Below are positions 124-27,596 of a stretch of 34,199 nucleotides of DNA, piece by piece. This DNA comes from Verrucomicrobiaceae bacterium (GTDB lineage Bacteria > Verrucomicrobiota > Verrucomicrobiia > Verrucomicrobiales > Verrucomicrobiaceae), in contig JAIYDW010000140.1 of NCBI GenBank assembly GCA_027487315.1, forward strand, positions 1 to 34,199. The letters run 5' to 3'. Under the pieces are notes generated by a model. That model saw only the letters and a list, made by a program, of their open reading frames with translations. It searched no databases and was not told the DNA's origin. The translations under genes and the position numbers were made by a program. The stretch's first letter is position 1; the number at the start of each line of letters is the position of its first letter.

Positions 124-1077
124 TCACACCCGCAGCCTCAATTCATCTGAAACACCAAAAGCCTCATAAACCGCCTCCCGCAAAGGTCGCAAATCACTCA
201 CCCCATACTCCAATGGCCCATTCAACTGGTTCACCGCCAATCCCTCTTCCTCAAGCTGCCTCTTGTTCGCCGGATCAATCACCTTGATCCCCACCATCGT
301 GAATCCAGACTTCAAATAAACATCATGCGCCGAAGGCTGCTTGCCTCCCGTCGCAACCTTCCCCGAAGGTGACCGACTGTCACGATGCGCCACCGTATCC
401 AAAAAAAGCCTCCGCACTCCCCGATCCATCGCATCACTCATCACTCGATGCACCAACTCCCGCCCCAATCCCCGCCCCTGCACCGCCGGATCAAGCCCCA
501 CAAACACCACCTTGGCCGCCGATTCGTCAGATCGCACTGAATAATCCAGATGCACCATCCCCACCGGACAGGCGTCCAACCAAACCACATTCAATTCCAA
601 ACTCCCAAACACCTCCTCCAATTCCGCCTCCGAGTAATCCCGAATCGGCCACCAAGTCGAGTCGTTGCCCACCAACGTGTGGATCGCCATCACCTGCGCC
701 TTCGAGATCTCCCGGCTCGGGTCCTTCACCGTGTCCACCAACGTCAACGGCCCCCGAATGCAAAACCCCTCTCTCATCGCCGGATTCTTGGAGCGCCTCA
801 CCGCATCTTGATCCCCGATCGGTCGATACTCATAAAAACTGATCGCCAACGGATCCAGAGGCGCGCAAACCGTTGACCCATTCTCATCCAGAAAAACCGC
901 CAGCGAACAGGTCGCCCCAGGCCAATCCTCAACCGTCAAAATCCGCCCCGGCAACACCTTGCCCTCATGCGTCGCCGCCACCTGCCGCATCAAATCCTGC
1001 ATCCCAGCATCGCGATTCCTCCGCTCACACGCCGCGATCTCTGAAAAAATCGGATCAAGATCAAAATCCTCACTCAT
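124..1077 (-). CDS. GNAT family N-acetyltransferase
   Basis: Predicted 317-residue cytosolic protein that should transfer an acetyl group from acetyl-CoA to an unknown amine. The C-terminal half carries the GNAT core: a beta strand with VVFVGLDP leads into the acetyl-CoA pyrophosphate-binding loop Q-G-R-G-L-G at residues 200-205, followed by helix RELVHRVMSDAMDRG and strand VRRLFLDT. The first 110 residues are not recognised. The late segment SGKVATGGKQPSAHDVYLKSG is compatible with the usual GNAT motif B with an insertion. The start at 1077 (MSEDFDLDP) is the only sensible ATG and diverges from the radical SAM gene at 1221. The substrate cannot be read from sequence. Confidence 0.82.
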   Translation of the reverse strand: MSEDFDLDPIFSEIAACERRNRDAGMQDLMRQVAATHEGKVLPGRILTVEDWPGATCSLAVFLDENGSTVCAPLDPLAISFYEYRPIGDQDAVRRSKNPAMREGFCIRGPLTLVDTVKDPSREISKAQVMAIHTLVGNDSTWWPIRDYSEAELEEVFGSLELNVVWLDACPVGMVHLDYSVRSDESAAKVVFVGLDPAVQGRGLGRELVHRVMSDAMDRGVRRLFLDTVAHRDSRSPSGKVATGGKQPSAHDVYLKSGFTMVGIKVIDPANKRQLEEEGLAVNQLNGPLEYGVSDLRPLREAVYEAFGVSDELRLRV

Positions 1078-1220
1078 ACATCACTCAGGGTTCCGATTCG
1101 CCGTTCCCACGCTCGGACCATCTCTCACCAAAAGCACTCCGCCAACCCAAATTTGACCACCCTTCTTCCATCTTCCCCCCGCTCCCACCTCCCCCACAAA
1201 CGTATCCTCCAAAGCTATCC

Positions 1221-2510
1221 ATGGACCTCACCCGCAAACTCGAAATCCTCGCCGACGCCGCCAAATACGACGCGTCCTGCGCCAGCAGCGGCGCCGCCAG
1301 GAAAGACTCGCGCGGCAGCCAGGGCGTCGGCTCCACCGGTGGCTCCGGCATCTGCCATTCCTACACCCCCGACGGTCGCTGCGTCTCCCTCCTCAAGGTC
1401 CTCATGACCAACGCCTGCCTCTACGACTGCCACTACTGCATCAACCGCCGCTCCAGCAACGTCACCCGCGCCCGCTTCACCCCCGACGAAATCGTCCAAC
1501 TCACCCTCGACTTCTACAAGCGCAACTACATCGAAGGCCTCTTCCTCAGCAGCGGCATCATCCGCAGCGCTGACCACACCATGGAACTCGTCATCGATGT
1601 CGCCCGCAAACTGCGCGAGCAGCACCATTTCAGAGGCTACATCCACCTCAAAACCATTCCCGAAGCCTCCCAATCCCTCATCGCCCTCGCCGGTCAATAC
1701 GCCGACCGCATCAGCATCAACATCGAACTCCCCACCCAGCAGGGCCTCAACACCCTCGCCCCCGAAAAAAACCTCCTCCGCACTGAACAAGCCATGGGCC
1801 ATATCCGGGGCAAAATCGACGAGCGCCATGCCGAAAAACGCAAACCCGGCGCCCCCAAACCGCCTCCCTTCGCCACCGGCCAAAGCACCCAAATGCTCGT
1901 CGGCGCCGACCCCTCAACCGACGCCACCATCCTCGGCTGCGCCGACAAACTCTACTCCGAGCACCACCTCAAACGCGTCTACTACTCAGCCTTCAGCCCC
2001 ATCCCCGAACCCTCCTCCATCCTCCCCCTGCAAGCCCCGCCCCTCATCCGCGAACACCGCCTCTATCAGGCCGATTGGCTCCTCCGCTTCTACGATTTCA
2101 AAGTCGACGAAATCGCCTCACCCTCCTCTCCCAATCTCGACCTCTCACTCGACCCCAAACTCTCCTGGGCTCTCCGCAACCGCCAAACCTTCCCGGTCGA
2201 CATCAACAAATCCCCCCGCGAACTGCTCCTCCGCGTCCCGGGCCTCGGCATCCGCAATGTGCAGCGCATCCTCAGCGCCCGTCGCTACACCCGCCTCCGT
2301 CTTGCCGACCTCATCCGCCTCAAACTGCAGATGAAAAAACTCCTCCCCTTCATCGTCACCGCTGACCATCACCCTGCCCGACTCGGGCTCGATAGCGACT
2401 CGCTCCGCGCCCGCTTCTTGCCTCCCCCCGAACAACTCGAACTCAACTTCGACGCCCCTCCGCAACCCACCGCAATCGACTTTATCTCAGCCAGATCCGG
2501 CGAACTCTGA
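1221..2510 (+). CDS. Putative DNA modification/repair radical SAM protein (TIGR03916-type)
   Basis: Predicted 429-residue radical S-adenosylmethionine enzyme. The CX3CX2C iron-sulfur motif is C66-LYD-C70-HY-C73, in the context characteristic of the family linked to uracil-DNA glycosylase-like proteins. A helix-hairpin-helix-like DNA-binding segment (LLRVPGLGIRNVQRILSARR) lies near residues 335-354. The open frame extends upstream to 873, but that stretch is low-complexity Pro/Ser, antisense to the acetyltransferase. The ATG at 1221 begins MDLTRKLEILADAAKYDAS, the canonical N-terminus of this family as I remember it. The next gene (DUF4130) starts 3 bases after the stop, so the two are very likely co-translated. 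The role in DNA repair is inferred by the family from its gene neighbourhood; the reaction is unknown. Confidence 0.9.
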   Translation: MDLTRKLEILADAAKYDASCASSGAARKDSRGSQGVGSTGGSGICHSYTPDGRCVSLLKVLMTNACLYDCHYCINRRSSNVTRARFTPDEIVQLTLDFYKRNYIEGLFLSSGIIRSADHTMELVIDVARKLREQHHFRGYIHLKTIPEASQSLIALAGQYADRISINIELPTQQGLNTLAPEKNLLRTEQAMGHIRGKIDERHAEKRKPGAPKPPPFATGQSTQMLVGADPSTDATILGCADKLYSEHHLKRVYYSAFSPIPEPSSILPLQAPPLIREHRLYQADWLLRFYDFKVDEIASPSSPNLDLSLDPKLSWALRNRQTFPVDINKSPRELLLRVPGLGIRNVQRILSARRYTRLRLADLIRLKLQMKKLLPFIVTADHHPARLGLDSDSLRARFLPPPEQLELNFDAPPQPTAIDFISARSGEL

Positions 2511-2513
2511 GTT

Positions 2514-3389
2514 ATGCGCACCATCATCATCCCACCCGATTTTGACGCATGGCGAACCACCGCCCGCCAACTCCTCGCCCAAAGCACCCACCCCGACGAA
2601 CTCCTCTGGTCGGACAACCCCACCGAACCCTCCCTCTTCTCCGAGCCATCTCCCCCACCCCAAGCCTCCACAACGACTCCCATCACCGTGCCTCCCGCCT
2701 TCGTGGATCTCGCCCGAAGCGCCGCCGCCCACACCAGCGAAAAACGCTGGGCCCTGCTCTACCGCCTTCTCTGGCGCCTCACCCTCGGCGGCGAACGCCA
2801 TCTCCTCGCCATCGCCACCGACCCCGATGTCCGTCAACTCCAAGACTGGTGCAAGGCCGTCAGCCGCGACATCCACAAAATGCACGCCTTCGTCCGCTTC
2901 CGTCTGGTCGCTGTCGACACCACCACCCGCCGCGAACAATTCGTCGCTTGGTTCGAGCCCGACCATCGCATCGTCCGACTCGCCACCCCCTTCTTCGAAA
3001 AACGATTCGCCGGCATGGACTGGTCCATCCTCACCCCCTACGAATGCGCCCACTGGGATGGCCAGAAACGCTACTTCACCCCCGGAGTCCCCCGCAGCAG
3101 CGCCCCGGACGAGGATGCCTTGGATGACCTCTGGCGCACCTACTACCGGAACATCTTCAATCCCGCCCGCGTCAAAATCAGCGCCATGCAGTCAGAGATG
3201 CCCAAGAAGTACTGGAAAAATCTCCCGGAAGCTCCGCTCATCGCAGATCTCATCGCCGAAAGCTCCACACGCGTGCACGACATGCTCACCACCCCGGAAC
3301 GCCCCGCCAAACCCGCCCCAAACAACGCCTACTTGGAGTCCCTCCGTCAGATGAACGAACAGCCAAACCCCGATCACAAGACCTCATGA
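2514..3389 (+). CDS. DUF4130 / TIGR03915 family putative DNA repair protein, stand-alone form
   Basis: Predicted 291-residue soluble protein. Recognised from its family-typical blocks: VSRDIHKMHAFVRFR around residues 113-128 and MPKKYWKNLPEA around residues 229-240. In many bacteria this domain is fused to, or next to, UdgX, the uracil-DNA glycosylase relative that crosslinks to uracil in DNA. Here the chain ends about 50 residues after the KKYWKNLPEA block, and no uracil-DNA glycosylase motif follows in this gene or beside it. The biochemical activity of DUF4130 is unknown. It lies 3 bases downstream of the radical SAM gene, as expected for this pair, and its 3' end overlaps the convergent glycosyltransferase gene by 6 bases. 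Confidence 0.87.
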   Translation: MRTIIIPPDFDAWRTTARQLLAQSTHPDELLWSDNPTEPSLFSEPSPPPQASTTTPITVPPAFVDLARSAAAHTSEKRWALLYRLLWRLTLGGERHLLAIATDPDVRQLQDWCKAVSRDIHKMHAFVRFRLVAVDTTTRREQFVAWFEPDHRIVRLATPFFEKRFAGMDWSILTPYECAHWDGQKRYFTPGVPRSSAPDEDALDDLWRTYYRNIFNPARVKISAMQSEMPKKYWKNLPEAPLIADLIAESSTRVHDMLTTPERPAKPAPNNAYLESLRQMNEQPNPDHKTS

Positions 3390-5990: not shown

Positions 5991-6971
5991 TCACGCCAGC
6001 ACCGCCTCAGCCGCCGCCCACCCGGACAACGCCGCACCCTCCACCCGCGACCCACAAAACGAGTCCCCCGCCAGCACCAACATCGGCGCCTGGTGTACCA
6101 CCGCGCACGCTTCGGCATCCACCCGCACCGGCTTGCTGAATTTCCATCCATGCACCTGCACCGTCTTCACACCCACCCCCAACCATGGCGCAGCCGCCTC
6201 TAGCAGCACTCGCGCCGCTTCATCCCGATCCTTGTCCCAATGCTCAAAACTGAACGCAGGCGTGGCATGAATCGTGACCGCCGCCTCCCCCGACACACCC
6301 TTCTTCTGGTTGTCTGCCATCCACGCAATCGGCCCCGCTGCCGGCGCAAAACCACCCGGCTCGGGAAGATTCGATGGCCCATCAAGCACCGCCATCACCG
6401 CCAGACAGCGCTCATACTCGATCGCCTCCAATCGACCCTTCCACACCTCAGGCAACACAACCCCTCCCTTCGCCAATAGCACCAGCGACTGCGGCACCGG
6501 CGCGGTCAAGATCACCGCCTTCGCCACCCAACTCTCACCACCTGTCATCTCAACCTTCCAACCTCCACCACTCGCCCTCAAAGCCTCCACCTGCTTCTCC
6601 TGAACAATCTCCAATCCCTGCGCCAAATAACGCGCCAATCCCGTCATCCCCGGCACGCCCCGCCATCTCGCATGCCCATCACCCTTGCCCGAAAAACCCC
6701 TGCACCACTCACTCGCCGCCCCCGCCACTCCAGCCTCTTCCAACAAGGCAGCAAACCGCACATCCCTCGCCGTGATAAACTGCGCCCCATGATCAAAAGT
6801 CGCCCCCCCGATCCGCCTCGTCGCCATCCGCCCTCCCAATCCCCTCCCCTTATCAATCACCACCGCCTTCCTCCCCGCCTCCCGCAAAGCCCTCGCCGCC
6901 AACAACCCCGCCATACCCGCCCCAATCACAAGCACCTCCACCGCTCTCTTCGTTTTGATTTCCATGTCCAT
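5991..6971 (-). CDS. Renalase-like FAD-dependent NAD(P)/amine oxidoreductase
   Basis: Predicted 326-residue flavoprotein. The Rossmann dinucleotide motif VIGAGMAG (G17, G19, G22) is followed by D40 at the end of strand 2 and by the second FAD motif GLGGRMATRR, typical of the renalase/amine-oxidase group. FDHGAQFITA and a C-terminal LVLAGDSF...VEGAALSG block, which closes the FAD site, are also typical. It probably oxidises a small reduced compound; the substrate is not readable. The ATG at 6971 is chosen over an in-frame TTG at 6977. It follows the TIGR03643 gene by 7 bases and lies inside the photolyase island, where such oxidoreductases recur. Confidence 0.85.
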   Translation of the reverse strand: MDMEIKTKRAVEVLVIGAGMAGLLAARALREAGRKAVVIDKGRGLGGRMATRRIGGATFDHGAQFITARDVRFAALLEEAGVAGAASEWCRGFSGKGDGHARWRGVPGMTGLARYLAQGLEIVQEKQVEALRASGGGWKVEMTGGESWVAKAVILTAPVPQSLVLLAKGGVVLPEVWKGRLEAIEYERCLAVMAVLDGPSNLPEPGGFAPAAGPIAWMADNQKKGVSGEAAVTIHATPAFSFEHWDKDRDEAARVLLEAAAPWLGVGVKTVQVHGWKFSKPVRVDAEACAVVHQAPMLVLAGDSFCGSRVEGAALSGWAAAEAVLA

Positions 6972-6978
6972 TTTCAAT

Positions 6979-7212
6979 TCAATAGGTTGGTTTCAAATGC
7001 TCCTCCAACAATCGCCTGTGCTTGGTCACCCTGCCGCTCACCCGCTTGCGCCACATCCGAAAACTCGATCGCTTCAATTCCCGCCGCATCACCTCAATGA
7101 CCTGACCCTCCGTCAACCCGGTGCGCTCCTCGATCTCCTCAAAACTTGTTCGATCCTCCCAGGCATATCGAATCACCAGTGAGATCTGTTCCTGCGTTAA
7201 ACGATTCTTCAT
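6979..7212 (-). CDS. TIGR03643 family protein
   Basis: Predicted 77-residue protein matching the TIGR03643 pattern: LTQEQISLVIRYAWEDRTSFEEI, then GLTEGQVIEVMRRELKRSSF and MWRKRVSGRVTKH. The middle resembles a helix-turn-helix (FEEIEERTGLTEGQVIEVMR), so nucleic-acid binding is possible but unproven. Its ATG overlaps the stop of the preceding photolyase-like gene by 4 bases (ATGA), suggesting translational coupling. The family is known mainly from its neighbourhood with photolyase/cryptochrome genes. The high Arg/Lys content of the tail fits binding to DNA or an acidic partner. Confidence 0.85.
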   Translation of the reverse strand: MKNRLTQEQISLVIRYAWEDRTSFEEIEERTGLTEGQVIEVMRRELKRSSFRMWRKRVSGRVTKHRRLLEEHLKPTY

Positions 7213-8447
7213 GCGGCTTGAAGCTGGTTGAGGTGACGACTCATCTTCTGCCAGAACGGAAAAAACCCCGCTCCCGCAAAAGAAAACACAAGCTCATCCG
7301 ACGCCCGCCGAACCAGCGTCAACCGCACGCCATGGGCCTCCATCCGACTCTTCAACCGCGGCACCAAATCCCCCATTGGCCCCACCATCGGCGCATACGC
7401 CACCACCTCCTCCAACCCTTGCTCCACCGCCCAATTTGAGAGCCCCTCCACCGGATCACCCGCCTCCACCATCACCGCCGCACACCCAAAATGCGCACCG
7501 GCTCTCGCCAACCCATCGTGCATCACCGTCCGCAACGACTCAATCCGGCGTTCACTGAGCCGATACCCATCTCGATACACACGCTCACTCACATACCCGG
7601 CAACACTCACCGGCGCACACCCCGCCAGCGGTCCCTTCTCCAAAACCAGATCGTCAGCATGCACCCACACCCCAACCCGTCCCCTCAATTCGGGCAACGC
7701 CATCAAATACTTCGGCAATGGCTTCTTCACCACCTCATCCACCTCCTTCACCACACTCGCCGTCACCACCTCATCAGCAATCCGCTCACTCCCCGCATCC
7801 CCTTCCGCCAGATACCTCGACCCATACTTCTCAAGGTTCGACCTGCGCACCAGATACGTCTTCCCCACCGTCTGCAATCCCGCCACCCAACGCCATGAAA
7901 GCGTGTTGCTCGCCGGATCCGCATCCAAAAGGTGCCGGAAGAAAAAATCCGCCCCTAACTCCCACGGCAGTCGCTCCACATGCACCCAAAAACTCGCCCA
8001 CCACATCCGCGCATGGTTGTGCAGATACCCCGTCTCAATCAACTCACGCGCCATCGCATCCATGCTCGCCACACCGCTCTCGCCTGCCGCCACCGACTCC
8101 ACTCTTTCCAGCGTCTCCTTCGGCAAATGCTTTCTCAACCAGTCCACCCGCCGCCTCCAGTTCGTCCACACCGCTGGCCGCATCTCCAGCCACCCCTTCC
8201 AGTAGCGACGCCAGCACACTTCCTGCAGCCACTTCTCCACTTCATGAAACGCATGTTTTTGCAGCGTCTGCTCAATGATCTCATCCTCAAGCAGCAACCG
8301 AAACCGGATCGCCGCGCTCAACCCCGACACGTTCCCATGGCCCGCCTGAACCTGATTCCGACTGCCCGCATACCTCACCACCTTCGGCAGGAACGCACGC
8401 CATGCCTCCAGCGCTTCAGCTCGGGTCAACGGTTCAAATGACGACAT
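7209..8447 (-). CDS. Photolyase/cryptochrome FAD-binding domain protein with apparent domain permutation
   Basis: Predicted 412-residue protein. Residues about 40-205 carry the photolyase FAD-domain signature: EVCWRRYWKGWLEMRP, TGYLHNHARMWWASF, LLDADPASNTLSWRWVAGLQ and YLVRRSNLEKY. The alpha/beta antenna domain that normally precedes it is absent from the N-terminus. Residues about 257-402 instead look like an alpha/beta domain placed after the FAD domain: strand VGVWVHADDLVLEKGPL, later strands CAAVMVEAG and EEVVAYAPMV, and an end GFFPFWQKM resembling the loop that precedes the FAD domain in ordinary photolyases. The open frame reaches 8519, but MSSFEPLTRAEALEAW at 8447 fits the homologs I remember. 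First gene of the minus-strand island operon, divergent from the iron-sulfur photolyase. Confidence 0.82.
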   Translation of the reverse strand: MSSFEPLTRAEALEAWRAFLPKVVRYAGSRNQVQAGHGNVSGLSAAIRFRLLLEDEIIEQTLQKHAFHEVEKWLQEVCWRRYWKGWLEMRPAVWTNWRRRVDWLRKHLPKETLERVESVAAGESGVASMDAMARELIETGYLHNHARMWWASFWVHVERLPWELGADFFFRHLLDADPASNTLSWRWVAGLQTVGKTYLVRRSNLEKYGSRYLAEGDAGSERIADEVVTASVVKEVDEVVKKPLPKYLMALPELRGRVGVWVHADDLVLEKGPLAGCAPVSVAGYVSERVYRDGYRLSERRIESLRTVMHDGLARAGAHFGCAAVMVEAGDPVEGLSNWAVEQGLEEVVAYAPMVGPMGDLVPRLKSRMEAHGVRLTLVRRASDELVFSFAGAGFFPFWQKMSRHLNQLQAA

Positions 8448-8625
8448 AAAAAGATTCTCAGCTTCAGCACGATCACCAGAGTCCTTTGCATCAGCATCAC
8501 CCATCTCGGTTCGCATCACACCCCAGCCTTACCAGTACGCTCCTGACCCTCAACAGGATGCCCTCCCAATCCCGCCATCCATCAAGCACATCGATGCGTA
8601 TCCCTCAACTCTCTCTCACCTCTAC
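8448..8625. promoter_or_regulatory. Divergent intergenic region between the two photolyase-type genes
   Basis: This 178-base region separates the minus-strand operon starting with the photolyase-like gene from the plus-strand iron-sulfur photolyase. It must hold promoters for both directions, or for one if an upstream start at 8516 is used for the minus gene. I see no convincing -35/-10 pair, operator palindrome or RNA structure. A coordinated light or stress response is plausible but not shown. Confidence 0.3.
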
Positions 8626-10200
8626 ATGCGCAACCTCATCATCATCCTCGGCGATCAACTCAATGCCGACTCCGCCGCCTTCGATGACTTCGATCCCAAT
8701 CAAGACGCTGTCTGCATGGCCGAGGTCGCTCACGAAACCATCAAGGTCTGGAGCAGCAAGCCCCGCACCACCGTCTTCCTCTCAGCCATGCGGCATTTCC
8801 GCGATGCTCTCAGATCCCAGGGCCGCAAGGTCTTCTACCGCGAACTCACCGCGACCAGTGGCGAGTGGAAAGGCAGCACCGGTGCCGCAAAACCAAGCTC
8901 CGCTGAAACTTTCGAAACCGCGCTCACCGAACTCTCCCAACGCCTCAAACCCGCAAAGTGGATCCTCGTGGAACCCGGCGAGTGGAGCGTCAAAACCGCC
9001 ATCCAGTCCGCTGCCACCGCCAACACCCTCCCGCTCGAGATCCGCGAGGATCGCCATTTCCTGTGCAGCCACGCCCAATTCACCGCCCACGCCGACGGCC
9101 GCAAACAACTCCGCATGGAGTTCTTCTACCGCGAGATGCGCCAGCGTCATGCCGTGCTCATCGAAAAGGGCAAACCCGTCGGTGGCGAGTGGAACTTTGA
9201 CAGTGAAAACCGCAAGAGCTTCAGCAAAGAAGGCCCTCCCTTTCACGCTCATCCCCGCCGCTTCGAACCCGACACCATCACTCAGCAAGTGATCGCCATG
9301 GTCAACACGCGCTTTGCCGATCATCCAGGCGACCTCACCGATTTCGATTGGCCAGTCACCCACGAAGACGCGCAAATCGCCTTGCACGATTTCATCACTC
9401 ATCGCCTCGCTGAATTCGGAGACTGGCAGGACGCCATGTGGACCGCCGAACCCTGGCTTTTCCACTCCCGCCTCAGCGCCGCCATGAACCTCAAGTTGTT
9501 GGACCCGCGCCTCGTCATCGCCGCCGCCGAAAACGCCTGGAAAGAAGGCCGCGCCCCCCTCGCCAGTGTCGAGGGCTTTATCCGTCAAATCCTCGGCTGG
9601 CGCGAGTACGTCCGCGGCATCTACTGGCACCAAATGCCCGGCTATCTCGATCTCAATGCCCTCGGCGCCGACCAGCCCCTCCCGCCATTCTATTGGACCG
9701 GTGAAACCGACATGGCCTGCCTCCGCGATGCTCTCGGTCAAACCCTGCGCCTCGGCTACGCCCACCACATCCAGCGCCTCATGGTCACCGGCCTCTACGC
9801 TCTCATGCTTGGCGTTCGCCCCCGCGAGGTCCACGCATGGTATCTCGCCGTTTACGTCGATGCCATCGAATGGGTCGAACTCCCCAACACCCTTGGTATG
9901 TCCCAACACGCCGATGGCGGCCTCATGGCCAGCAAACCTTACATCGCCACCGGCAAATACATCCAGCGCATGAGCAACTACTGCTCAGGCTGCCGCTTCG
10001 ATCCCGCCCAAAGCACCGGCCCCACCGCCTGCCCCTTCACCACCCTCTACTGGGATTTCCTCCTCCAGCACGAACCCGCCATGCGCAAAAATCAACGCAT
10101 GTCCATGCAAGTCCGAAACCTCGCCCGCCTCGACGAACCCAAACGCAATGCCATCCGCGCCCAAGCCGCCCACCTTCGCGCCGCTGCAACCAGCCCCTAA
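8626..10200 (+). CDS. phrB: Iron-sulfur bacterial cryptochrome/(6-4) photolyase (FeS-BCP)
   Basis: Predicted 524-residue flavoprotein that repairs UV photoproducts with light, probably (6-4) pyrimidine dimers as Agrobacterium PhrB does. The N-terminal MRNLIIILGDQLNADSAAF is the family start. The four cluster cysteines are C365, C453, C456 and C469 (NYCSGC and TACPF). Their spacing of 88, 3 and 13 residues equals that of Agrobacterium PhrB (C350, C438, C441, C454, from memory), so the 4Fe-4S cluster should be present. FAD-domain blocks include GWREYVRGIYW and MVTGLYALMLG. The Agrobacterium enzyme uses a lumazine antenna. Transcribed alone, convergent with xdhC 6 bases downstream. A signalling (cryptochrome) role remains possible. 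Confidence 0.93.
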   Translation: MRNLIIILGDQLNADSAAFDDFDPNQDAVCMAEVAHETIKVWSSKPRTTVFLSAMRHFRDALRSQGRKVFYRELTATSGEWKGSTGAAKPSSAETFETALTELSQRLKPAKWILVEPGEWSVKTAIQSAATANTLPLEIREDRHFLCSHAQFTAHADGRKQLRMEFFYREMRQRHAVLIEKGKPVGGEWNFDSENRKSFSKEGPPFHAHPRRFEPDTITQQVIAMVNTRFADHPGDLTDFDWPVTHEDAQIALHDFITHRLAEFGDWQDAMWTAEPWLFHSRLSAAMNLKLLDPRLVIAAAENAWKEGRAPLASVEGFIRQILGWREYVRGIYWHQMPGYLDLNALGADQPLPPFYWTGETDMACLRDALGQTLRLGYAHHIQRLMVTGLYALMLGVRPREVHAWYLAVYVDAIEWVELPNTLGMSQHADGGLMASKPYIATGKYIQRMSNYCSGCRFDPAQSTGPTACPFTTLYWDFLLQHEPAMRKNQRMSMQVRNLARLDEPKRNAIRAQAAHLRAAATSP

Positions 10201-10206
10201 TCACTC

Positions 10207-10974
10207 TCACCCCCGCCGCTCCAAAAGCTGCGCCACAATGCTGATCGCAATCTCCGCCGGATCATTCGTCCCAATCGGCAGTCCCACCGGACACACCACC
10301 TTCTCCAGTTGCTCCTCCTCAATCCCATCCTCCCGCAACTCCCGACTCAACACCGCCCGCTTCGCCAAACTCCCGATCACTCCCAAAAACGCTCCCTCCG
10401 GATACCGCCTCAACACTTCCCTCAACACCGGACGATCCGTCGAATGCCCCTTCGTCAGGCACAGTATGTAACTCTTCTCACTCACCAGACCCACCCCATC
10501 CTCATAAGCACTCACACAGTGCACCTTCACATTTCCCGCCTTCGGCAATCCCTCCAGCCAGTCCGCTCGCACATCGATCACATCCACTCGACACGCCAAT
10601 CCCGAAAGCACCCCCACCACCGCCTTCGCCACGTGTCCCGCTCCAAAGATCCCCACATGCCACGCTGCTAAAGGCCGCACCACCTCAAACAAAAATCGCA
10701 TCTCTCCCCCGCACGTCATCCCCACATCCCGCTGCAAGTTCCACACCACCTCCTCACACACCGCCTCGTCCTCACCCAGTAGCCTTTGCCCTTCCTCAAT
10801 CACCTTCGCTTCCACCCGCCCTCCCCCAACCGTCCCCGCCACCAATCCCTCCGCCGTCACCACCACCTTCCCACCCAGCATCCCCGGCACACTCCCGCGC
10901 ACCTGCAAAATCGTCACCACCACGCAGGCGATTCCCCGCTGATGCTCTCGCGCGACCGTTTCCCACACACTCAT
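10207..10974 (-). CDS. xdhC: XdhC/CoxI family molybdenum cofactor insertion protein
   Basis: Predicted 255-residue maturation factor for xanthine dehydrogenase. It binds molybdenum cofactor, helps add the terminal sulfido ligand and delivers the cofactor. The N-terminal XdhC/CoxI block reads GSVPGMLGGKVVV and GLVAGTVGGGRVEAKVI. The C-terminal Rossmann-like half begins HVGIFGAGHVAKAVVGVLSG and ends with the family-typical CPVGLPIGTNDPAEIAISI. It diverges from the purine gene uraD across 81 bases. The enzyme it should serve, the single-chain xanthine dehydrogenase, lies 7 kb away at 18320-21970. Length is normal for a two-domain XdhC. Confidence 0.92.
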   Translation of the reverse strand: MSVWETVAREHQRGIACVVVTILQVRGSVPGMLGGKVVVTAEGLVAGTVGGGRVEAKVIEEGQRLLGEDEAVCEEVVWNLQRDVGMTCGGEMRFLFEVVRPLAAWHVGIFGAGHVAKAVVGVLSGLACRVDVIDVRADWLEGLPKAGNVKVHCVSAYEDGVGLVSEKSYILCLTKGHSTDRPVLREVLRRYPEGAFLGVIGSLAKRAVLSRELREDGIEEEQLEKVVCPVGLPIGTNDPAEIAISIVAQLLERRG

Positions 10975-11055
10975 AAATCCAAACTACCTTCCCCCAACGC
11001 CGTTCTCACGTGCGATTGGCATTTCAATTGCTGATAAGTCGTTGTTCATTCCGCC
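10975..11055. promoter_or_regulatory. Divergent promoter region of xdhC and the purine catabolic genes
   Basis: The 81 bases between the xdhC start (minus) and the uraD start (plus) are the only place for a promoter of both units. The stretch around 11000-11045 is locally AT-richer than its surroundings, but I cannot identify a confident -35/-10 pair or a palindromic operator. Confidence 0.35.
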
Positions 11056-11580
11056 ATGCTCTCTCTCCGCACCATCAATGCCATGACCTCAGCGGAATTC
11101 ATCGAAACTTTCGGCGGCATCTACGAAAGCTCACCCTGGGTCGCCGCTCGCTCCCACACCCAACTCCCCTTCTCCACCCCCGCCGACCTCCTCACCACCT
11201 TACGCGATTCCGTCGATCAAGCCTCCATCACCGAGCAGGACACCCTCATCCGCGCCCACCCCGACCTCGCCGGCAAACTCGCCCGCTCCAACGCCCTCAC
11301 CGCCGAATCCACCCGCGAACAATCCCGCCTCGGCCTCAACCAACTCGACGACGCCACCTACGCTCTTTTCGATTCCCTCAATCAACAATACCAGCAGCGC
11401 TTCGACTTCCCATTCATCATCTGCGTCGGCCTCCTCAAAGATCGCTCCGAAGTCCTCGCCGCCTTCCACTCCCGCCTCACCCACTCTCCCGCCGAAGAGC
11501 GCCTCGAAGCCCTCCACCAAATCCACCTCATCGCCGCCCTCCGCCTCTCCCACCTCGTCGAAAATCTGCCCTTCCCCTAA
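11056..11580 (+). CDS. uraD: 2-oxo-4-hydroxy-4-carboxy-5-ureidoimidazoline (OHCU) decarboxylase
   Basis: Predicted 174-residue enzyme that decarboxylates OHCU to S-allantoin, the third step after urate oxidation. The catalytic block RAHPDLAGKLA contains the essential His (H68). STREQSRLGL (E88) and the strand FPFIICVGLLKDRSEVL complete the family pattern. Length is typical of stand-alone UraD. The start at 11056 is chosen; an in-frame ATG 27 bases on (residue 10) would still keep the domain. It opens the plus-strand purine series, and its TAA stop touches the left end of an inverted-repeat element. Confidence 0.93.
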   Translation: MLSLRTINAMTSAEFIETFGGIYESSPWVAARSHTQLPFSTPADLLTTLRDSVDQASITEQDTLIRAHPDLAGKLARSNALTAESTREQSRLGLNQLDDATYALFDSLNQQYQQRFDFPFIICVGLLKDRSEVLAAFHSRLTHSPAEERLEALHQIHLIAALRLSHLVENLPFP

Positions 11581-11602
11581 TTCAAAGTTGCTTTCAAGAT
11601 GA
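11581..11602 (+). repeat. Left terminal inverted repeat of the 159-base element
   Basis: A 22-bp arm beginning TTCAAAGTTGC, perfectly complementary to 11718-11739. It begins at the base after the uraD stop codon. Confidence 0.8.
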
Positions 11603-11717
11603 ACATGAGATGCGAAGACATTGCACCCGCTGGCAAGGCGCTGACGAGGAGTGTATTAGATCAATACTCGACGAGGAAGCAACGCGGCCAGCGGGTGCGA
11701 GGGCTAACAGATAGGGC

Positions 11718-11739
11718 TCATCTTGAAAGCAACTTTGAA
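11718..11739 (-). repeat. Right terminal inverted repeat of the 159-base element
   Basis: Perfect complement of the left arm, ending AACTTTGAA. It lies 7 bases upstream of the deaminase start codon, so it occupies the ribosome-binding region of that gene. Confidence 0.8.
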
Positions 11740-11746
11740 TAAATCC

Positions 11747-12355
11747 ATGTCACTCGCCTACCACGTCAGCCTCCAGCTCCCGGACTGGCTCCAACCCTTC
11801 GTGGAAGCCCAACCCGAAACGACCTTCGCCACCCGCGAATCGCGCATGCGCTTCGTCATCGAACTCTCCCGCCAAAACGTCCTCCACCAATCCGGCGGAC
11901 CCTTCGCTGCCGCCGTCTTCGAGCGCGACTCCGGCCGCCTCATCGCTCCCGCCGTCAACATCGTCGTCCCCGGCCACACCTCCGTCGCTCACGCCGAATC
12001 CATGGCCTTCATGCTCGCCCAGCAGCGCCTCGAAACCTTCGACCTCGGCGCCAGCCACCTCCCTCCCATGGAACTCTTCGCTTCCTCTCAGCCCTGCATC
12101 CAATGCTTCGGCAACACCTGGTGGTCCGGCGTCCAGGCCCTCACCATCGGCAGCCGTGGCGACGATGTCGAATCCATCACCGGCTTCAAAGAAGGCCCGC
12201 TCCCGCCTGACTGGGTCCACCTTCTCGAAAACCGCCCCGCTCCCCTTCGCCCCATCACCGTCATCCGGGACCTCCTGCGCGATGAAGCTCGCGACGTCCT
12301 CAAACTCTATCGCGACACCGGTGGCTTCGTCTACAACGCCGGCTCCGCCAGCTGA
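11747..12355 (+). CDS. CDA-fold nucleoside/base deaminase, possibly guanine deaminase
   Basis: Predicted 202-residue zinc deaminase of the cytidine/guanine deaminase fold. The zinc site is H82-A-E84 (SVAHAESMAF) plus C117 and C120 (PCIQC), with the usual GGPFAAAVFE strand before it. Among purine genes the most likely role is guanine to xanthine, feeding the xanthine dehydrogenase. The sequence is longer and more divergent than Bacillus GuaD, so the substrate is an inference. The ATG at 11747 is used; the open frame from 11723 starts inside the inverted-repeat arm. Its end overlaps the convergent adenosine deaminase gene by 25 bases. Confidence 0.8.
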   Translation: MSLAYHVSLQLPDWLQPFVEAQPETTFATRESRMRFVIELSRQNVLHQSGGPFAAAVFERDSGRLIAPAVNIVVPGHTSVAHAESMAFMLAQQRLETFDLGASHLPPMELFASSQPCIQCFGNTWWSGVQALTIGSRGDDVESITGFKEGPLPPDWVHLLENRPAPLRPITVIRDLLRDEARDVLKLYRDTGGFVYNAGSAS

Positions 12356-13443
12356 GCCTTGATCGTCATGTACCCGGGGATCAATGTCCCCAGCATCAAT
12401 CGCACCCGCAAATCATGCGCGGCAAACGCGCCCTTGATCGAATTCAGCGCCAGTCGCTCCAGATCATCCAGACTCAAATCAAACAGCTCCGTCGCCAGCG
12501 CCAGCTCCTTCGACAGCTCCGTATCGCTCATCAACCGGTCATCCGTGTTCAAACTCACCCGGAACCCCAACCTGAAGAACAACGGGAACGGATGCGTCTC
12601 CAAACTCGCGCACGCCCCGGTGTGCACGTTGCTCGACAAACACATCTCCAATGGAATCCGGTGATCCAAAACATACTTCGCCAGACTCCCCAACACCACC
12701 CCTCCATCCGGCTTGTAACTCACATCATCCATCAACCTCGTCCCATGCCCCAACCGATGCGCCCCACACCACTGCAGCGCCTGCCAGATCGACTCCGCCC
12801 CATAAGCCTCCCCCGCGTGAATCGTAATATTGAAATTCGCCCGATGAATCGCCTGAAACGCCGCCCGATGCTTCTTCGGCGGAAACCCCGATTCCCCACC
12901 AGCCAGGTCAAACCCCACCACCCCCTGATCCCGCCACCGAATCGCCAATTCCGCCATCACCAGCGAATCATCACGATCCCGCATCGCACAAATGATCAAT
13001 CCCCAAGCCACCCCAAACTGACTCCCGCCTCGCCTCAACCCCGCAATCACCGACTCCACCACCTCATCCATCGTCAACCCCGCCCCCGTGTGAAACACCG
13101 GAGCAAAGCGCACCTCCGCATAAACCACCCCATCCATCGCCATGTCCTCCATGAACTCATACGCGATTCGCTCCAACCCCTCCCGTTCCTGCATCACCGC
13201 CGTCGTATGCGCAAACCCCTCCAAATACTCCACCAAATTCCCCCGTTGCGCCCCGCGATGAAACCACGACGCCAGTTCCCCTGGATCATCCGTCGGCAGC
13301 CCCGCATACCCCACCTGCTTCGCCAACTCAATCACCGTCCTCGGCCTCACCCCACCATCCAAATGCTCATGCAACATCACCTTCGGCAGTTTCCGAAAGT
13401 CCACCGCCTTAACAAGCTCGCCACCAGTTGGAATCTTATGCAT
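12331..13443 (-). CDS. add: Adenosine deaminase family protein
   Basis: Predicted 370-residue TIM-barrel zinc hydrolase that deaminates adenosine (or a related adenine compound), producing inosine for purine breakdown. All metal and catalytic residues are visible: H25 and H27 in LHEHLDGG, H209 and E212 in TIHAGEA, H233 in RLGHGT, and D301/D302 in SLNTDD. It is the only minus-strand gene inside the purine series, diverging from the HIU hydrolase gene at 13537. Adenine deaminase or aminofutalosine deaminase activity, known from relatives, cannot be excluded. The HEHLDGG context is typical of true adenosine deaminases. Confidence 0.9.
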   Translation of the reverse strand: MHKIPTGGELVKAVDFRKLPKVMLHEHLDGGVRPRTVIELAKQVGYAGLPTDDPGELASWFHRGAQRGNLVEYLEGFAHTTAVMQEREGLERIAYEFMEDMAMDGVVYAEVRFAPVFHTGAGLTMDEVVESVIAGLRRGGSQFGVAWGLIICAMRDRDDSLVMAELAIRWRDQGVVGFDLAGGESGFPPKKHRAAFQAIHRANFNITIHAGEAYGAESIWQALQWCGAHRLGHGTRLMDDVSYKPDGGVVLGSLAKYVLDHRIPLEMCLSSNVHTGACASLETHPFPLFFRLGFRVSLNTDDRLMSDTELSKELALATELFDLSLDDLERLALNSIKGAFAAHDLRVRLMLGTLIPGYMTIKAQLAEPAL

Positions 13444-13536
13444 GCTCCTCTGAAAGCATAATTCGCGCCACCCCTCAATAATGGCCCATCTTGTGCTCTA
13501 AGGTCTCCTCATCACACGCAATCGCGTTCCGCCCTC

Positions 13537-13869
13537 ATGCCACCCAAGCTCTCAACCCACATCCTCGACACTGCCTTAGGCAATCCTGGCGCCGGCATCC
13601 GCGTCCAACTCTTCCGCGACTCCACCCTCCTCACCGATTCCACAACCAACGCCTCCGGCCGCTGCGACGCTCCCCTCCTCGAGGGCGACGCCATGCTACC
13701 CGGCCCCTACCAACTCCTCTTCTACATCGGCGACTACTTCCGCGCCCAAAACATCCCTTGCCCCTTCCTCGACATCGTTCCTGTCCACTTCCAAATCCAG
13801 GCCGGTCAATCCTATCACATCCCCCTCGTCTGTTCCCCCTGGGCCTACAGCACCTACCGCGGCAGTTGA
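13537..13869 (+). CDS. uraH: 5-hydroxyisourate hydrolase (transthyretin-like)
   Basis: Predicted 110-residue enzyme that opens 5-hydroxyisourate, the urate oxidase product, to OHCU. Transthyretin-fold landmarks are present: N-terminal LSTHILDTALGNPG with H8, GRCDAPLL with R42, H94 in QSYHIPLV, and the diagnostic C-terminal YRGS (residues 107-110). There is no signal peptide or periplasmic extension. The allantoate amidohydrolase gene follows after 5 bases. Together with uraD it shows that urate is degraded enzymatically rather than by spontaneous hydrolysis. Confidence 0.95.
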   Translation: MPPKLSTHILDTALGNPGAGIRVQLFRDSTLLTDSTTNASGRCDAPLLEGDAMLPGPYQLLFYIGDYFRAQNIPCPFLDIVPVHFQIQAGQSYHIPLVCSPWAYSTYRGS

Positions 13870-13874
13870 TCCCC

Positions 13875-15089
13875 ATGTCCTCAACCACCGCCATCACCCG
13901 TCTCGAGTCCCTCGCCCGACTCTCCGACCACCCCGGTCATCTCACCCGCTCCTTCCTCTCCCCCGCCAGTCGCCAAGCCGCCGACCTCCTCCTCTCCTGG
14001 ATGCGCGACCTCGGCCTCCAAACCAGCCACGCTCCCGATGGCACTCTCCGCGGCATCCTCCCCGGCTCCAACCCCTCCGCCCCCCCGCTCCTCCTCGGCT
14101 CTCACTACGACACCGTCATCGACGCCGGCAAATACGATGGCCCCCTCGGCATCCTCTCCGCCCTCGCCGCCCTTGAATCCCTCGCTCAACAAAACATCAC
14201 CCTCCCCTGCCCCGTCCATGTCCTCGCGTTCTCCGATGAAGAAGGCGTCCGCTTCCAAACCACCTACCTCGGCTCCCGCTCCATCCTGGCCCCGCTCGAT
14301 GAAAAAACCTTAGCCGCCACGGACATCAACGGCATCACCCTCGCCTCCGCCCTCGCCACTGAAGGCTGGCACCAAAACGCCACCCCCATCCACTACCCGC
14401 CGCAAAGCCCACGTGGCTACGTCGAACTCCACATCGAGCAAGGTCGCGTCCTCGAACAACTCAACCAACCCGCTGCCACCGTCTCCACCATCGCCGGCCA
14501 AACCCGCCTCGCCATCACCCTCACCGGCCACGCCGACCACGCCGGCACCACGCCCATGCCCCTCCGCCGCGATGCCCTCACCGGCGCGGCCGAATGCATC
14601 CTCAGCGCCGAATCCCTCGCACGCTCCCATCCCCCCGCTGTCATCACCGTTGGCAAAATCGCCGTCCACCCCGGCGCCTCCAATTCCATCCCCCAAAGTG
14701 CCAACTTCACCATCGATCTCCGCCACCCCGAAGACGAAGAACGCCACGCCCTCACCACCGAACTCCAGGAACGCTTCCACACCATCACCGATCAACGAAA
14801 CCTGACCCTCGATTGGAATCTTGTCCAGGAATCCCCCGCCACCCCCTGCGATCCCACCCTCACCACCCGCCTCCTCGATTCACTCGAAACCATCACCGGC
14901 TTCCGCGAATCCATAATCAGCGGTGCCGGTCACGATGGCGTCGCCCTCGCCCCCGCCATGCCCATCGCCATGCTCTTCATCCGTTGCCGCGACGGCCTCT
15001 CCCATCACCCCGACGAATACGCCTCGCCCGAAGACATCGACACCGGCATCCAAATCCTCACCCACTTCCTCAAAGCCTTCACCGCATGA
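13875..15089 (+). CDS. allC: Allantoate amidohydrolase (M20 family)
   Basis: Predicted 404-residue binuclear metal amidohydrolase that removes ammonia and CO2 from allantoate to give ureidoglycine. M20 residues seen: H77 and D79 (GSHYDT), D88 (AGKYDGPLG), E122/E123 (SDEEGVRFQ), H186 (ELHIEQG), and late motifs GAGHDGVALA and GLSHHPDEY. The combination GKYDGPLG, FSDEEGVRFQ and SGAGHD resembles plant allantoate amidohydrolase more than carbamoylases. The open frame runs back to 13491 through the uraH gene, but MSSTTAITRLESLARLSD at 13875 is the natural start. Allantoinase follows with a 4-base ATGA overlap. Confidence 0.9.
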   Translation: MSSTTAITRLESLARLSDHPGHLTRSFLSPASRQAADLLLSWMRDLGLQTSHAPDGTLRGILPGSNPSAPPLLLGSHYDTVIDAGKYDGPLGILSALAALESLAQQNITLPCPVHVLAFSDEEGVRFQTTYLGSRSILAPLDEKTLAATDINGITLASALATEGWHQNATPIHYPPQSPRGYVELHIEQGRVLEQLNQPAATVSTIAGQTRLAITLTGHADHAGTTPMPLRRDALTGAAECILSAESLARSHPPAVITVGKIAVHPGASNSIPQSANFTIDLRHPEDEERHALTTELQERFHTITDQRNLTLDWNLVQESPATPCDPTLTTRLLDSLETITGFRESIISGAGHDGVALAPAMPIAMLFIRCRDGLSHHPDEYASPEDIDTGIQILTHFLKAFTA

Positions 15090-16372
15090 GCGACTTCGAC
15101 CTCATCCTCCACTCGCGTCATCCCGATGGCACCCCGGTCACTCTCGGCATCACCGACGGCCTCATCCAAGCCATCGCCGAAGACCTCCCCGGTTCCGCCA
15201 CCGAAGAAATCGATCACACCCACGGCTTCATCCTCCCCGGTTGGATCGATTCCCATGTCCACTTCAACGAACCCGGTCGAACCGATTGGGAAGGCCTCAC
15301 CACCGGCTCCCGCGCCCTCGCCGCTGGCGGCGGCACCGCCTTCTTCGACATGCCTCTGAACTCCTCCCCTCCCGTCCTCAATGTCGAAGCCTTCGAAGCC
15401 AAACGCACCCTCGCCGAACAAAAAGCCTGCACCGACTTCGCTCTCTGGGGCGGCCTCACTCCCGATTCGCTCGACCACCTCGAAGCCCTCGCCGACTGCG
15501 GTTCCATCGGCTTCAAAGCCTTCATGTGCCCCTCCGGTCTCGACGAATTCATTCACGCCGGTGCCGCCACCCTCCGAGCCGGCATGAAAAAAGCCGCCGC
15601 CATCAACCTCCCCGTCGCCGTCCACGCCGAACTCGATCCCACCACCCGCCCCCCCGGTCACGACATGGCCGCCTGGCTCGCCTCCCGCCCCATCCAACTC
15701 GAACTCGACGCCATCACGCTCGCTCTCGAACTCGCCGGTGAAACCGGCTGCGCCCTTCACATCGTCCACGTCTCCAACCCCGAAGGCATCGACCTCATCA
15801 ACGCCGCCAAAAAACAAGGCATCAACGTCACCGTCGAAACCTGCCCCCACTACCTCCTCCTTTCCGACACCGACGCCATCCGCATCGGCGCCTTCGCCAA
15901 ATGCGCTCCTCCTCTCCGCCCGCAAGCCACCCTCAACGCCCTCCGCCAAAAACTCCTCGCTGGCGAGATCGACACCCTCGGTTCCGACCACTCCCCCTCC
16001 TCGCCTGATCTCAAACAAGGCGATGACTTCTTCGCCATGTGGGGTGGCATCGCCGGCATCCAGCACGCCCTCCCTCTCCTCCTCGATCACGACCTCGCCC
16101 CCGCTCCTCTCCTCTCCAGCAACGTCGCCAAACGCTTCCGCCTCGCCAACAAAGGCGGCCTCACCCTCGGCCACGACGCCGACTTCTGTCTCGTCACCAA
16201 AACCCCGCACACCTTCACCCCCGCCGAATCATTGACGCGCCACCCCATCTCCCCCTACCTTAACCAAACCTCCCAGCACCGTATCGAAGCCACCTACCTC
16301 CGAGGCCAGCGCATCACCGACCAAACCCGAGGCCACTTCCTCCATCCCACTCTCACCACCAACACACCATGA
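15086..16372 (+). CDS. allB: Allantoinase
   Basis: Predicted 428-residue cyclic amidohydrolase that opens allantoin to allantoate. Binuclear metal ligands are visible: H58 and H60 (DSHVHFNEPGRTDWEG), carbamylated-lysine candidate K144 (IGFKAFMC), H180 (VAVHAEL), H228 (HIVHVS) and D301 (LGSDHSPS). The HFNEPG-R-x-DWEG segment is the allantoinase signature and separates it from the dihydropyrimidinase at 24656. Start and stop both overlap neighbours by 4 bases (ATGA), so it is translationally coupled on both sides. Length is slightly below the usual 450. Confidence 0.95.
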   Translation: MSDFDLILHSRHPDGTPVTLGITDGLIQAIAEDLPGSATEEIDHTHGFILPGWIDSHVHFNEPGRTDWEGLTTGSRALAAGGGTAFFDMPLNSSPPVLNVEAFEAKRTLAEQKACTDFALWGGLTPDSLDHLEALADCGSIGFKAFMCPSGLDEFIHAGAATLRAGMKKAAAINLPVAVHAELDPTTRPPGHDMAAWLASRPIQLELDAITLALELAGETGCALHIVHVSNPEGIDLINAAKKQGINVTVETCPHYLLLSDTDAIRIGAFAKCAPPLRPQATLNALRQKLLAGEIDTLGSDHSPSSPDLKQGDDFFAMWGGIAGIQHALPLLLDHDLAPAPLLSSNVAKRFRLANKGGLTLGHDADFCLVTKTPHTFTPAESLTRHPISPYLNQTSQHRIEATYLRGQRITDQTRGHFLHPTLTTNTP

Positions 16373-17106
16373 ACCTCTTCGGCCAAACCCGCACTTCCGT
16401 TTCCTCCCGTCACGCGCTCATCGCTCCAGATGGCCACGTCCCCTCTCAATTCCCGGGTTGGGAAAACGCCACCGCCTTTGTCATCATCTCACCCGCCATG
16501 GGCGCCCAACTTTCGCAAATCCTCATCACCTTCAAAGCCGAGTCCAATCAAGCGCCCTTCCCCGCCGATGCTCACGAGCACGCGCTCTACATCGAGACCG
16601 GCTCCTGCCAGGTCACCCTCCCGGATCGCACCCTCGACCTCCCCACCACCTCCTTCCTCTACCTCCCTCCCCACACTCCCTTCACCCTCCACGGCACCTC
16701 CGACGCCCGCATCACGCTCTTCCGCAAAATCTACCAACCCCTGCCCGATCTCGCTCCCCCTCCCATCACCCACGGCCTCGCCAGCTGCATCCCCGGTGAA
16801 CCCTTCCTCGGCTTCGACAACGCCCGCCTGCAGACCCTTCTCCCTCTCGACCCCGCCTTCGATCTCGCCATCAACATCTTCACCTACCAACCCGGCGCGA
16901 CTCTCCCCTTCGTCGAAACCCACATCATGGAGCACGGTCTGCTCATGCTCCAGGGCCAGGGCATCTACCGCCTCGAAGACGCCTATTACCCTGTCCAGGC
17001 AGGCGACGCCATCTGGATGGCTCCCTACTGCCCGCAATGGTTTGTCGCAATGGGCGCGGAACCTGCTTCTTACCTCTACTACAAAGACATTCACCGCCTT
17101 CCATGA
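16369..17106 (+). CDS. allE: (S)-ureidoglycine aminohydrolase (bicupin)
   Basis: Predicted 245-residue double-cupin enzyme that hydrolyses (S)-ureidoglycine to (S)-ureidoglycolate and ammonia. The second cupin carries the manganese site E183, H185, H189 (VETHIMEHG) and Q223 (CPQW). These spacings of 2, 6 and 40 residues equal those of the Arabidopsis enzyme (E235, H237, H241, Q275, from memory). The first cupin (residues about 45-115) keeps the fold but lacks this set. ATGA overlaps on both sides place it between allantoinase and ureidoglycolate amidohydrolase, its exact metabolic position. Length is typical. Confidence 0.93.
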   Translation: MNLFGQTRTSVSSRHALIAPDGHVPSQFPGWENATAFVIISPAMGAQLSQILITFKAESNQAPFPADAHEHALYIETGSCQVTLPDRTLDLPTTSFLYLPPHTPFTLHGTSDARITLFRKIYQPLPDLAPPPITHGLASCIPGEPFLGFDNARLQTLLPLDPAFDLAINIFTYQPGATLPFVETHIMEHGLLMLQGQGIYRLEDAYYPVQAGDAIWMAPYCPQWFVAMGAEPASYLYYKDIHRLP

Positions 17107-18323
17107 ACAGCGCCCGCCTCTCTGCCGAGATCGATCACCTCGCCCACTTCTCTTCCCATCCCGCTCCGGCAGTCACGCGCATCCTATTCTCCCCCGAAGA
17201 CTTCGCCGCTCGCACGTGGCTCATTGACCTCGCCACCGACGCCGGTTTCCTCACTCGCAGCGATGCCGTCGGCAATCTCTTCTTCACCTGGCCCGGCTCA
17301 AATCCTTTCCTCCCCGCCGTCGCCACCGGCTCCCACATCGACGCCATCCCCAATGCCGGAAAATACGATGGCGTCATCGGTGTCCTCGGTGGCCTCGAAG
17401 CCATGCGCTCCCTCCGCGAGTCCGGCCACCAACCCACCCGCTCCATCGAGCTCATCATGTTCACCGCCGAAGAACCCACCCGCTTCGGCATCGGCTGCCT
17501 CGGCTCCCGCCTCCTCGCCGGCACTACCTCCCCCGATCAAGCCCACGCCCTGCGCGATCCCAACGGCCGCTCCCTCGACGACCTCTGCCCCTCCTCCGAT
17601 CCGCTCTCCTCCGTCCTCCTCCAGCCGGGCCACTACAGCGCCTTCATCGAACTCCACATCGAGCAAGGCCCCCACCTCGACGCTACCGGCATCGACATCG
17701 GCATCGTCGAAAAAATCGCCGCGCCTGCAGCTTTCCGTCTCACCCTCACCGGCACCGGTGGCCACGCCGGCGCCGTCCTCATGCCCGACCGTCACGACGC
17801 CTTCCTCGCCGCTGCCGAAATCGCGCTCGCCGTCGAATCCGCCGCCCTCAACTCCCCCTCACCCGACACCGTCGGCACGGTTGGCAAAGTCGAAGTCCGC
17901 CCCGGCGCCATCAACTCCATCCCCAATCACGCCCTCATCGAAATCGACTTCCGCGACACCGACCTCACCACTCGCGATCAAGCCATCGCCGTGATCCAAT
18001 CCACCGCCGAAAAAATCTGCCACCGCCGCGGCGTCTCCCTCTCCTGGTTGCAAATCAACGCCGACCCGCCCGCCACCTGCGATCCCGCTCTCGTCACCCT
18101 CATCGAGTCCGCCACCACCACCCTCGGCTACAGCCACCAGCGCATGATCAGCCGCGCCTACCACGACTCCCTCTTCATGGCCCGCGTCTGCCCCACCTGC
18201 ATGATCTTCATCCCCTGCGACAAAGGCTACTCCCATCGCCCCGACGAATACAGCTCCCCCGAAGCCATCGCCAAAGGCACCACCCTCCTCGCCGAATCCC
18301 TCCGCCAACTCAGCGCCGCATGA
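17103..18323 (+). CDS. Ureidoglycolate amidohydrolase (M20 family)
   Basis: Predicted 406-residue M20 metallohydrolase that should release two ammonia and CO2 from (S)-ureidoglycolate, giving glyoxylate. Motifs: GSHIDAIPNAGKYDG (H78, D80, D89), FTAEEPTRFGIGCLGSR (E123/E124), ELHIEQGPHL and a late SHRPDEY. The EEPTRFGI-x-CLGSR stretch is characteristic of plant ureidoglycolate amidohydrolase and differs from the EEGVRFQ of the allantoate enzyme upstream, so the two paralogs are probably not redundant. The start at 17103 gives a 4-base overlap with the aminohydrolase. Another carbamoyl-amino-acid hydrolase activity is the alternative. Confidence 0.87.
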   Translation: MNSARLSAEIDHLAHFSSHPAPAVTRILFSPEDFAARTWLIDLATDAGFLTRSDAVGNLFFTWPGSNPFLPAVATGSHIDAIPNAGKYDGVIGVLGGLEAMRSLRESGHQPTRSIELIMFTAEEPTRFGIGCLGSRLLAGTTSPDQAHALRDPNGRSLDDLCPSSDPLSSVLLQPGHYSAFIELHIEQGPHLDATGIDIGIVEKIAAPAAFRLTLTGTGGHAGAVLMPDRHDAFLAAAEIALAVESAALNSPSPDTVGTVGKVEVRPGAINSIPNHALIEIDFRDTDLTTRDQAIAVIQSTAEKICHRRGVSLSWLQINADPPATCDPALVTLIESATTTLGYSHQRMISRAYHDSLFMARVCPTCMIFIPCDKGYSHRPDEYSSPEAIAKGTTLLAESLRQLSAA

Positions 18324-21970: not shown

Positions 21971-21979
21971 CCCCCGCCC

Positions 21980-22048
21980 AATCCGCAATCCGCAATCCGC
22001 AATCCCCAATCCCCAATCCCCAATCCGCAATCCGCAATCCGCAATCCC
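21980..22048. repeat. Heptanucleotide tandem repeat directly before a start codon
   Basis: Nine complete 7-base units and a six-base partial copy fill the gap between the xanthine dehydrogenase stop and the aminotransferase ATG at 22049. The units are three AATCCGC, three AATCCCC, three AATCCGC, then AATCCC-ATG. The array replaces the expected ribosome-binding region: no Shine-Dalgarno-like purine run is visible on the plus strand. Copy-number change would alter the spacing but not the protein. The symmetric 3-3-3 arrangement suggests slippage or block duplication. Confidence 0.92.
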
Positions 22049-23371: not shown

Positions 23372-23378
23372 TCGCCCC

Positions 23379-24632: not shown

Positions 24633-24655
24633 GTCCCCGGTCGCATTGCCCCCCC

Positions 24656-26092: not shown

Positions 26093-26110
26093 AAACTCAA
26101 ACGCGTGGAA

Positions 26111-27595: not shown

Positions 27596-27596
27596 A

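Follow-up and report, generated by a model that had tools for sequence, protein, structure and literature searches.

The photolyase locus and its gene neighbourhood

The window, i.e., the whole stretch of 34,199 nucleotides that we analyzed (contig JAIYDW010000140.1, positions 1 to 34,199, assembly GCA_027487315.1, Verrucomicrobiaceae bacterium), comes from a genome of 5.9 Mb in 256 contigs whose nearest relatives are Verrucomicrobiota. It contains a photolyase gene with an inverted domain order, which is followed on the same strand by a gene encoding a small TIGR03643 protein and then by one encoding a renalase-like oxidoreductase, with a second, divergent photolyase gene on the other side (Table 1). 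An alternative GTG start at 8519 would extend the inverted photolyase to 436 amino acids; since a stop codon is present four codons upstream of the equivalent ATG in a near relative (L004), we regard the ATG listed in Table 1 as the likely start.

Table 1. Coordinates of the genes and protein domains at the photolyase locus (window positions)
Feature	Position	Strand	Details
Renalase-like FAD/NAD(P) oxidoreductase	5991..6977	-	Renalase 4zcc as top match among solved structures (E 1e-29)
TIGR03643 small protein, 77 aa	6979..7212	-	ATG 7212-7210 overlaps photolyase stop codon 7211-7209
Inverted-topology (predicted NewPHL/SPL-type) photolyase	7209..8447	-	412 aa, ATG start at 8447
C-terminal alpha/beta domain, residues ~256-412	7212..7682	-	Homologous to canonical photolyase N-terminal antenna-type domain (structure and profiles)
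Linker, residues ~235-255	7683..7745	-	Few secondary-structure elements in model; variable in alignment
N-terminal FAD catalytic domain, residues 1 to ~234	7746..8447	-	PF03441 match, structural alignment, invariant FAD/CPD residues
Gap between divergent photolyase genes, 178 bases	8448..8625	.	Coordinates, sequence
Prokaryotic (6-4) photolyase/FeS-BCP (DPRP family), divergent	8626..10200	+	PF04244 E 7.5e-71; C-x2-C-x12-C pattern

Our search, carried out with one genome per species, identified 429 genome stretches encoding relatives of the window photolyase, and the best 80 of these are near full-length matches, all from Verrucomicrobiota as judged from record titles. Within these best 80 loci, a TIGR03643 homologue is found in 21, usually directly after the photolyase gene, the renalase-like gene is present in 23, and a DPRP-family gene is present in 12, always on the opposite strand. 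A gene encoding a SelL-related redox protein also lies downstream in the window, after the renalase-like oxidoreductase, and alphaproteobacterial loci contain UbiB-type kinases and DUF3429 nearby. Asticcacaulis plasmids also contain a renalase-like homologue, located directly before the inverted photolyase, so that the pairing of these two genes crosses phyla. The renalase-like flavoprotein is a possible redox partner of the inverted photolyase; we found no literature linking renalase with photolyase. The gap between the two divergent photolyase genes may serve as a shared control region.

Elsewhere in the window, positions 873-3389 encode a TIGR03916 radical SAM 'putative DNA modification/repair' protein and its TIGR03915 partner, a pair also located near the photolyase in approximately 10 related loci. 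The region 10207-28724 encodes XdhC, a zinc deaminase, an amidohydrolase, M20 peptidase-family proteins, a xanthine-dehydrogenase-type enzyme, a class III aminotransferase, an aldehyde dehydrogenase and a dihydroorotate-dehydrogenase-family protein, and looks like a set of genes for purine/pyrimidine catabolism.

An N-terminal FAD domain with the predicted active site of a CPD photolyase

An AlphaFold2 model of the full-length protein, made with 75 sequences as input, has a pLDDT of 95.2 and a pTM of 0.92, and is all-helical between residues 9 and 223, followed by a linker, into which some relatives (e.g., L060) have long insertions, and then by an alternating alpha/beta part. The alignment of these 75 members of the family contains dozens of invariant columns, 10 of them within the C-terminal domain. 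One family copy, in another Verrucomicrobiota genome (G108; L128:2236-3424), is encoded in two frames, with the break near the domain boundary and an internal TAG in its second part; this copy is decayed, split or the product of an assembly error.

Analysis of the helical part confirmed the proposal of an earlier note, made from the sequence of this stretch, that an FAD-binding photolyase domain is located at the N-terminus. Pfam FAD_binding_7 (PF03441) matches residues 73-212 (E 9e-24), structural comparison pairs residues 1-234 of the model with the FAD halves of photolyases and cryptochromes of known structure at Z-scores of 15-17.6, and sequence matches to solved structures are to C-terminal photolyase halves, ending near residue 217. 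The Pfam match covers only profile positions 1-139 of 203, whereas in the canonical class I-like CPD photolyase of the same genome (L090, 469 aa) it covers positions 2-202, i.e., the full FAD domain.

Five residues, E76, W79, N144, M148 and W187, are invariant in all 75 Verrucomicrobiota sequences, and are kept in the six alphaproteobacterial, three Deinococcus and one Persicobacter proteins that we aligned. These residues correspond in the alignment to the CPD contacts E283, W286, N349, M353 and W392 of the class I enzyme of Anacystis, and we presume that they contact the CPD here, as in class I photolyases generally. R80, R147, D175, D177 and N181 are also invariant, with FAD-contact roles assigned after PMC9426592 and with N181 being the asparagine that faces the FAD. 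Of the electron-transfer tryptophans, W185 and W162 are invariant and the distal position is not a tryptophan, leaving a dyad, and the four-cysteine set of an Fe-S cluster is absent, the only cysteines in the window protein being C78, C277 and C322. Judged by its conserved residues, the predicted active site is of the CPD photolyase type.

The genome already contains class I-like and (6-4)-type photolyases, which might suggest that the window protein is instead a cryptochrome-like blue-light sensor or has no repair activity. We consider this unlikely, in that every CPD-recognition residue is invariant across the 75 sequences and CPD repair in single-stranded DNA has been reported for the NewPHL/SPL proteins (PMC13274461).

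The C-terminal domain is related to the photolyase antenna domain

In the model, the alpha/beta part contains strands at residues 258-261, 281-286, 323-328, 347-351 and 375-379 and a final helix at 395-411, in agreement with the alpha/beta domain that had been proposed at residues 257-402. When the C-terminal 170 residues were folded alone (pLDDT 94), the top structural matches were the N-terminal (antenna) domains of photolyases, with a Z-score of 12.5 for 8ijy (118 residues, 2.1 Å, chain residues 2-129), 12.2 for 1dnp (151 residues, 4.6 Å, chain residues 1-164) and 11.8 for 4dja. The universal stress protein 7ji4 is tied with these photolyases (Z 11.8), and the fold alone therefore places the domain in the right superfamily only and leaves its origin unsettled. 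At the level of sequence, Pfam searches with the window protein found nothing in the C-terminal 200 residues, PF00875 did not match the window C-terminal domain and matched only 2 of the 75 relatives (best 0.063), and a sequence search of solved structures with the C-terminal profile returned no match.

The tie with stress proteins, together with the weakness of the direct profile match to the canonical domain, would fit an independent fusion of an unrelated Rossmann-like or universal-stress-type domain to an FAD domain whose antenna domain had been lost, in which case nothing had moved. Three lines of evidence make this explanation quite improbable. Firstly, photolyase matches such as those to 1dnp and 4dja include the last helices (model residues 14-170), whereas most stress-protein matches end near residues 137-146. 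Secondly, profile comparison links the domain to photolyases by way of Deinococcus: the window-family domain matches the Deinococcus QL22 domain at 97.2% (E 3.7e-11), and the Deinococcus domains match the canonical N-terminal domain at 95.4% (E 1.9e-8), these E-values being those of single comparisons and the Deinococcus set being small, at four sequences. A mixed profile of inverted photolyases matches the canonical domain at 93.8%, with window residues 254-403 aligned to canonical residues 2-158, while stress-protein profiles reach 0.3-16% against the inverted sets and reversed-sequence controls at most 0.4%. Thirdly, the Deinococcus domains themselves match PF00875, albeit below the cut-off used by Pfam, with values of 7e-4 and 1e-3 for the C-terminal domain in two of the three inverted photolyases and 2.3e-4 for the second gene of the QL22 pair.

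The evidence for homology of the C-terminal domain is thus a two-step chain, because the direct comparison with the canonical N-terminal domain is not significant, either for the window-family profile alone (4.9%) or with alphaproteobacterial sequences added (4.2%), and the signal is lost when Deinococcus is removed. This chain does separate a photolyase from a stress-protein origin, since the link through Deinococcus is full-length and the controls are negative. The profile alignment also agrees with the two local resemblances on which a permuted antenna domain had been proposed: it sets VGVWVHADDLVLEKGPL on canonical strand 1 (IALHWFRKDLRLTDNTAL), as expected of the photolyase-like strand 1, and aligns AGFFPFWQKM with canonical YRVYTPYSRNWL, as expected if the FFPFWQKM ending is the loop that normally leads into the FAD domain. 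The second gene of Deinococcus QL22 ends in KFFGFWKRV, resembling GFFPFWQKM of the window protein.

The inverted domain order of the 412-residue photolyase is real, with the alpha/beta domain last in the window protein and first in the canonical photolyase of the same genome, both domains of which are homologous to those of the window protein. Fold and profile chain together support the suggestion of the earlier note that an antenna-type domain has moved from front to back, i.e., that the domain order is reversed.

Relationship to known inverted photolyases

The inverted domain order is already known, the window protein being a representative, from Verrucomicrobiota, of a published class. The original NewPHL paper is reportedly that of Emmerich et al. 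(NAR 2020). NewPHL proteins occur in Dinoroseobacter shibae and Methylobacterium mesophilicum and are named Phr7 in Prochlorococcus, with the C-terminal part called the 'Z-domain', according to PMC9426592; two further papers describe 'a mere Trp dyad' in the D. shibae protein (PMC8948257) and an asparagine facing the FAD in NewPHL (PMC12083526). NewPHL and the short photolyase-like (SPL) proteins are grouped as one class with stated inverted topology in PMC13274461. PMC9649867 describes SPL (Xu et al. 2021) as repairing CPDs, as being without the N-terminal alpha/beta domain and as containing an Fe-S cluster. A third group, Phr4-Phr5 and Phr6 of marine Synechococcus and Cyanobium, likewise has the FAD domain first and the photolyase domain second, in both split and fused forms (PMC9426592). 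The earlier note knew the family merely as a 'FAD-binding domain-containing protein', a description that these publications supersede.

The window protein shares with NewPHL the N-terminal FAD domain, the C-terminal domain that follows it, the lack of Fe-S cysteines, the tryptophan dyad and the FAD asparagine, and differs in that its family is a Verrucomicrobiota lineage, monophyletic in our FAD-domain tree. Near full-length relatives with 36-38% identity are encoded on alphaproteobacterial plasmids, including one in Ruegeria, a relative of Dinoroseobacter; this protein of Ruegeria TM1040 (38% over 98%) was our nearest proxy for the NewPHL proteins of D. shibae and M. mesophilicum, with likeness to NewPHL itself assessed from published descriptions. 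SPL differs from the window family, which lacks the cysteines of its described Fe-S cluster. Phr4-5/Phr6, with Fe-S cysteines and a recognizable photolyase domain, also differ from the window protein, and are resembled by the Deinococcus proteins that we found. A role as a (6-4) photolyase, suggested by Haney et al. for Phr4-5/Phr6 (PMC9426592), is very improbable for the window protein, which has the same domain order as Phr6 but has no Fe-S cysteines and an invariant CPD-contact Met and Glu. The homology of the Z-domain with the antenna domain may be less appreciated, SPL being described without an alpha/beta domain, and we claim no priority for it.

Proposed function

Based on the sequence and the model, we put the probability that the gene encodes a CPD photolyase of the NewPHL/SPL type at approximately 85%, with single-stranded DNA as the probable substrate. 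The N-terminal helical domain would bind FAD and the flipped-out cyclobutane dimer, and blue light would excite the reduced FAD, which would pass an electron to the dimer and split it. Oxidized FAD would be reduced again through a chain of two tryptophans, W185 beside the FAD and then W162. We also infer a sealing role for the C-terminal antenna-type domain, which stands at the reverse end of the protein. Most probably it is packed against the FAD domain and would close the FAD pocket, which in this protein lacks its usual C-terminal stretch. The likely niche of such an enzyme is CPD repair in single-stranded DNA, alongside the canonical class I CPD photolyase and the (6-4) photolyase of the same genome.

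Distribution and order of events

Searches with FAD_binding_7 and DNA_photolyase showed that the source genome contains one canonical photolyase and the window protein, in addition to the neighbouring DPRP-type photolyase. The Verrucomicrobiota set adds many sequences to the inverted class, together with a recurring gene neighbourhood of TIGR03643, the renalase-like flavoprotein and the divergent (6-4)-type photolyase. In the FAD-domain tree the Verrucomicrobiota proteins form one group (support 98/93), and the AU test does not reject a single clade uniting all inverted proteins (p 0.56), a result limited by long branches.

Proteins encoded on Deinococcus plasmids share this inverted order and have, in addition, cysteines of the Fe-S type. 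In a plasmid of Deinococcus sp. QL22 (L164:2396-3687), the FAD domain and the alpha/beta domain are encoded by two genes with a 4-base overlap, which parallels the two-gene arrangement of phr4/phr5 in Synechococcus. One possible joint reading, which we advance tentatively and at somewhat under even odds, is that the Z-domain is the canonical antenna domain reversed in all branches sampled, that the class is not a simple domain-less ancestor, that the two-domain architecture is older than the split, and that a single switch of the order took place by way of a two-gene stage, as exemplified by Deinococcus QL22 and Synechococcus phr4/phr5. Should the antenna domain indeed lie at the opposite end, the argument would be a different one, and the order of events could be put to the test.

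In three Deinococcus plasmid proteins (L088, L122 and L123), the FAD domain is followed by a C-x2-C motif and other cysteines, a pattern suggestive of an Fe-S cluster. Our search of viral contigs found no relatives of the window photolyase, and phage photolyase matches were confined to the FAD domain. Of 194 genomes of the phylum, 9 encode a protein that matches the family strongly (E below 1e-80), with weaker matches being to the FAD halves of other photolyases, and 67 contain a match to PF00875.
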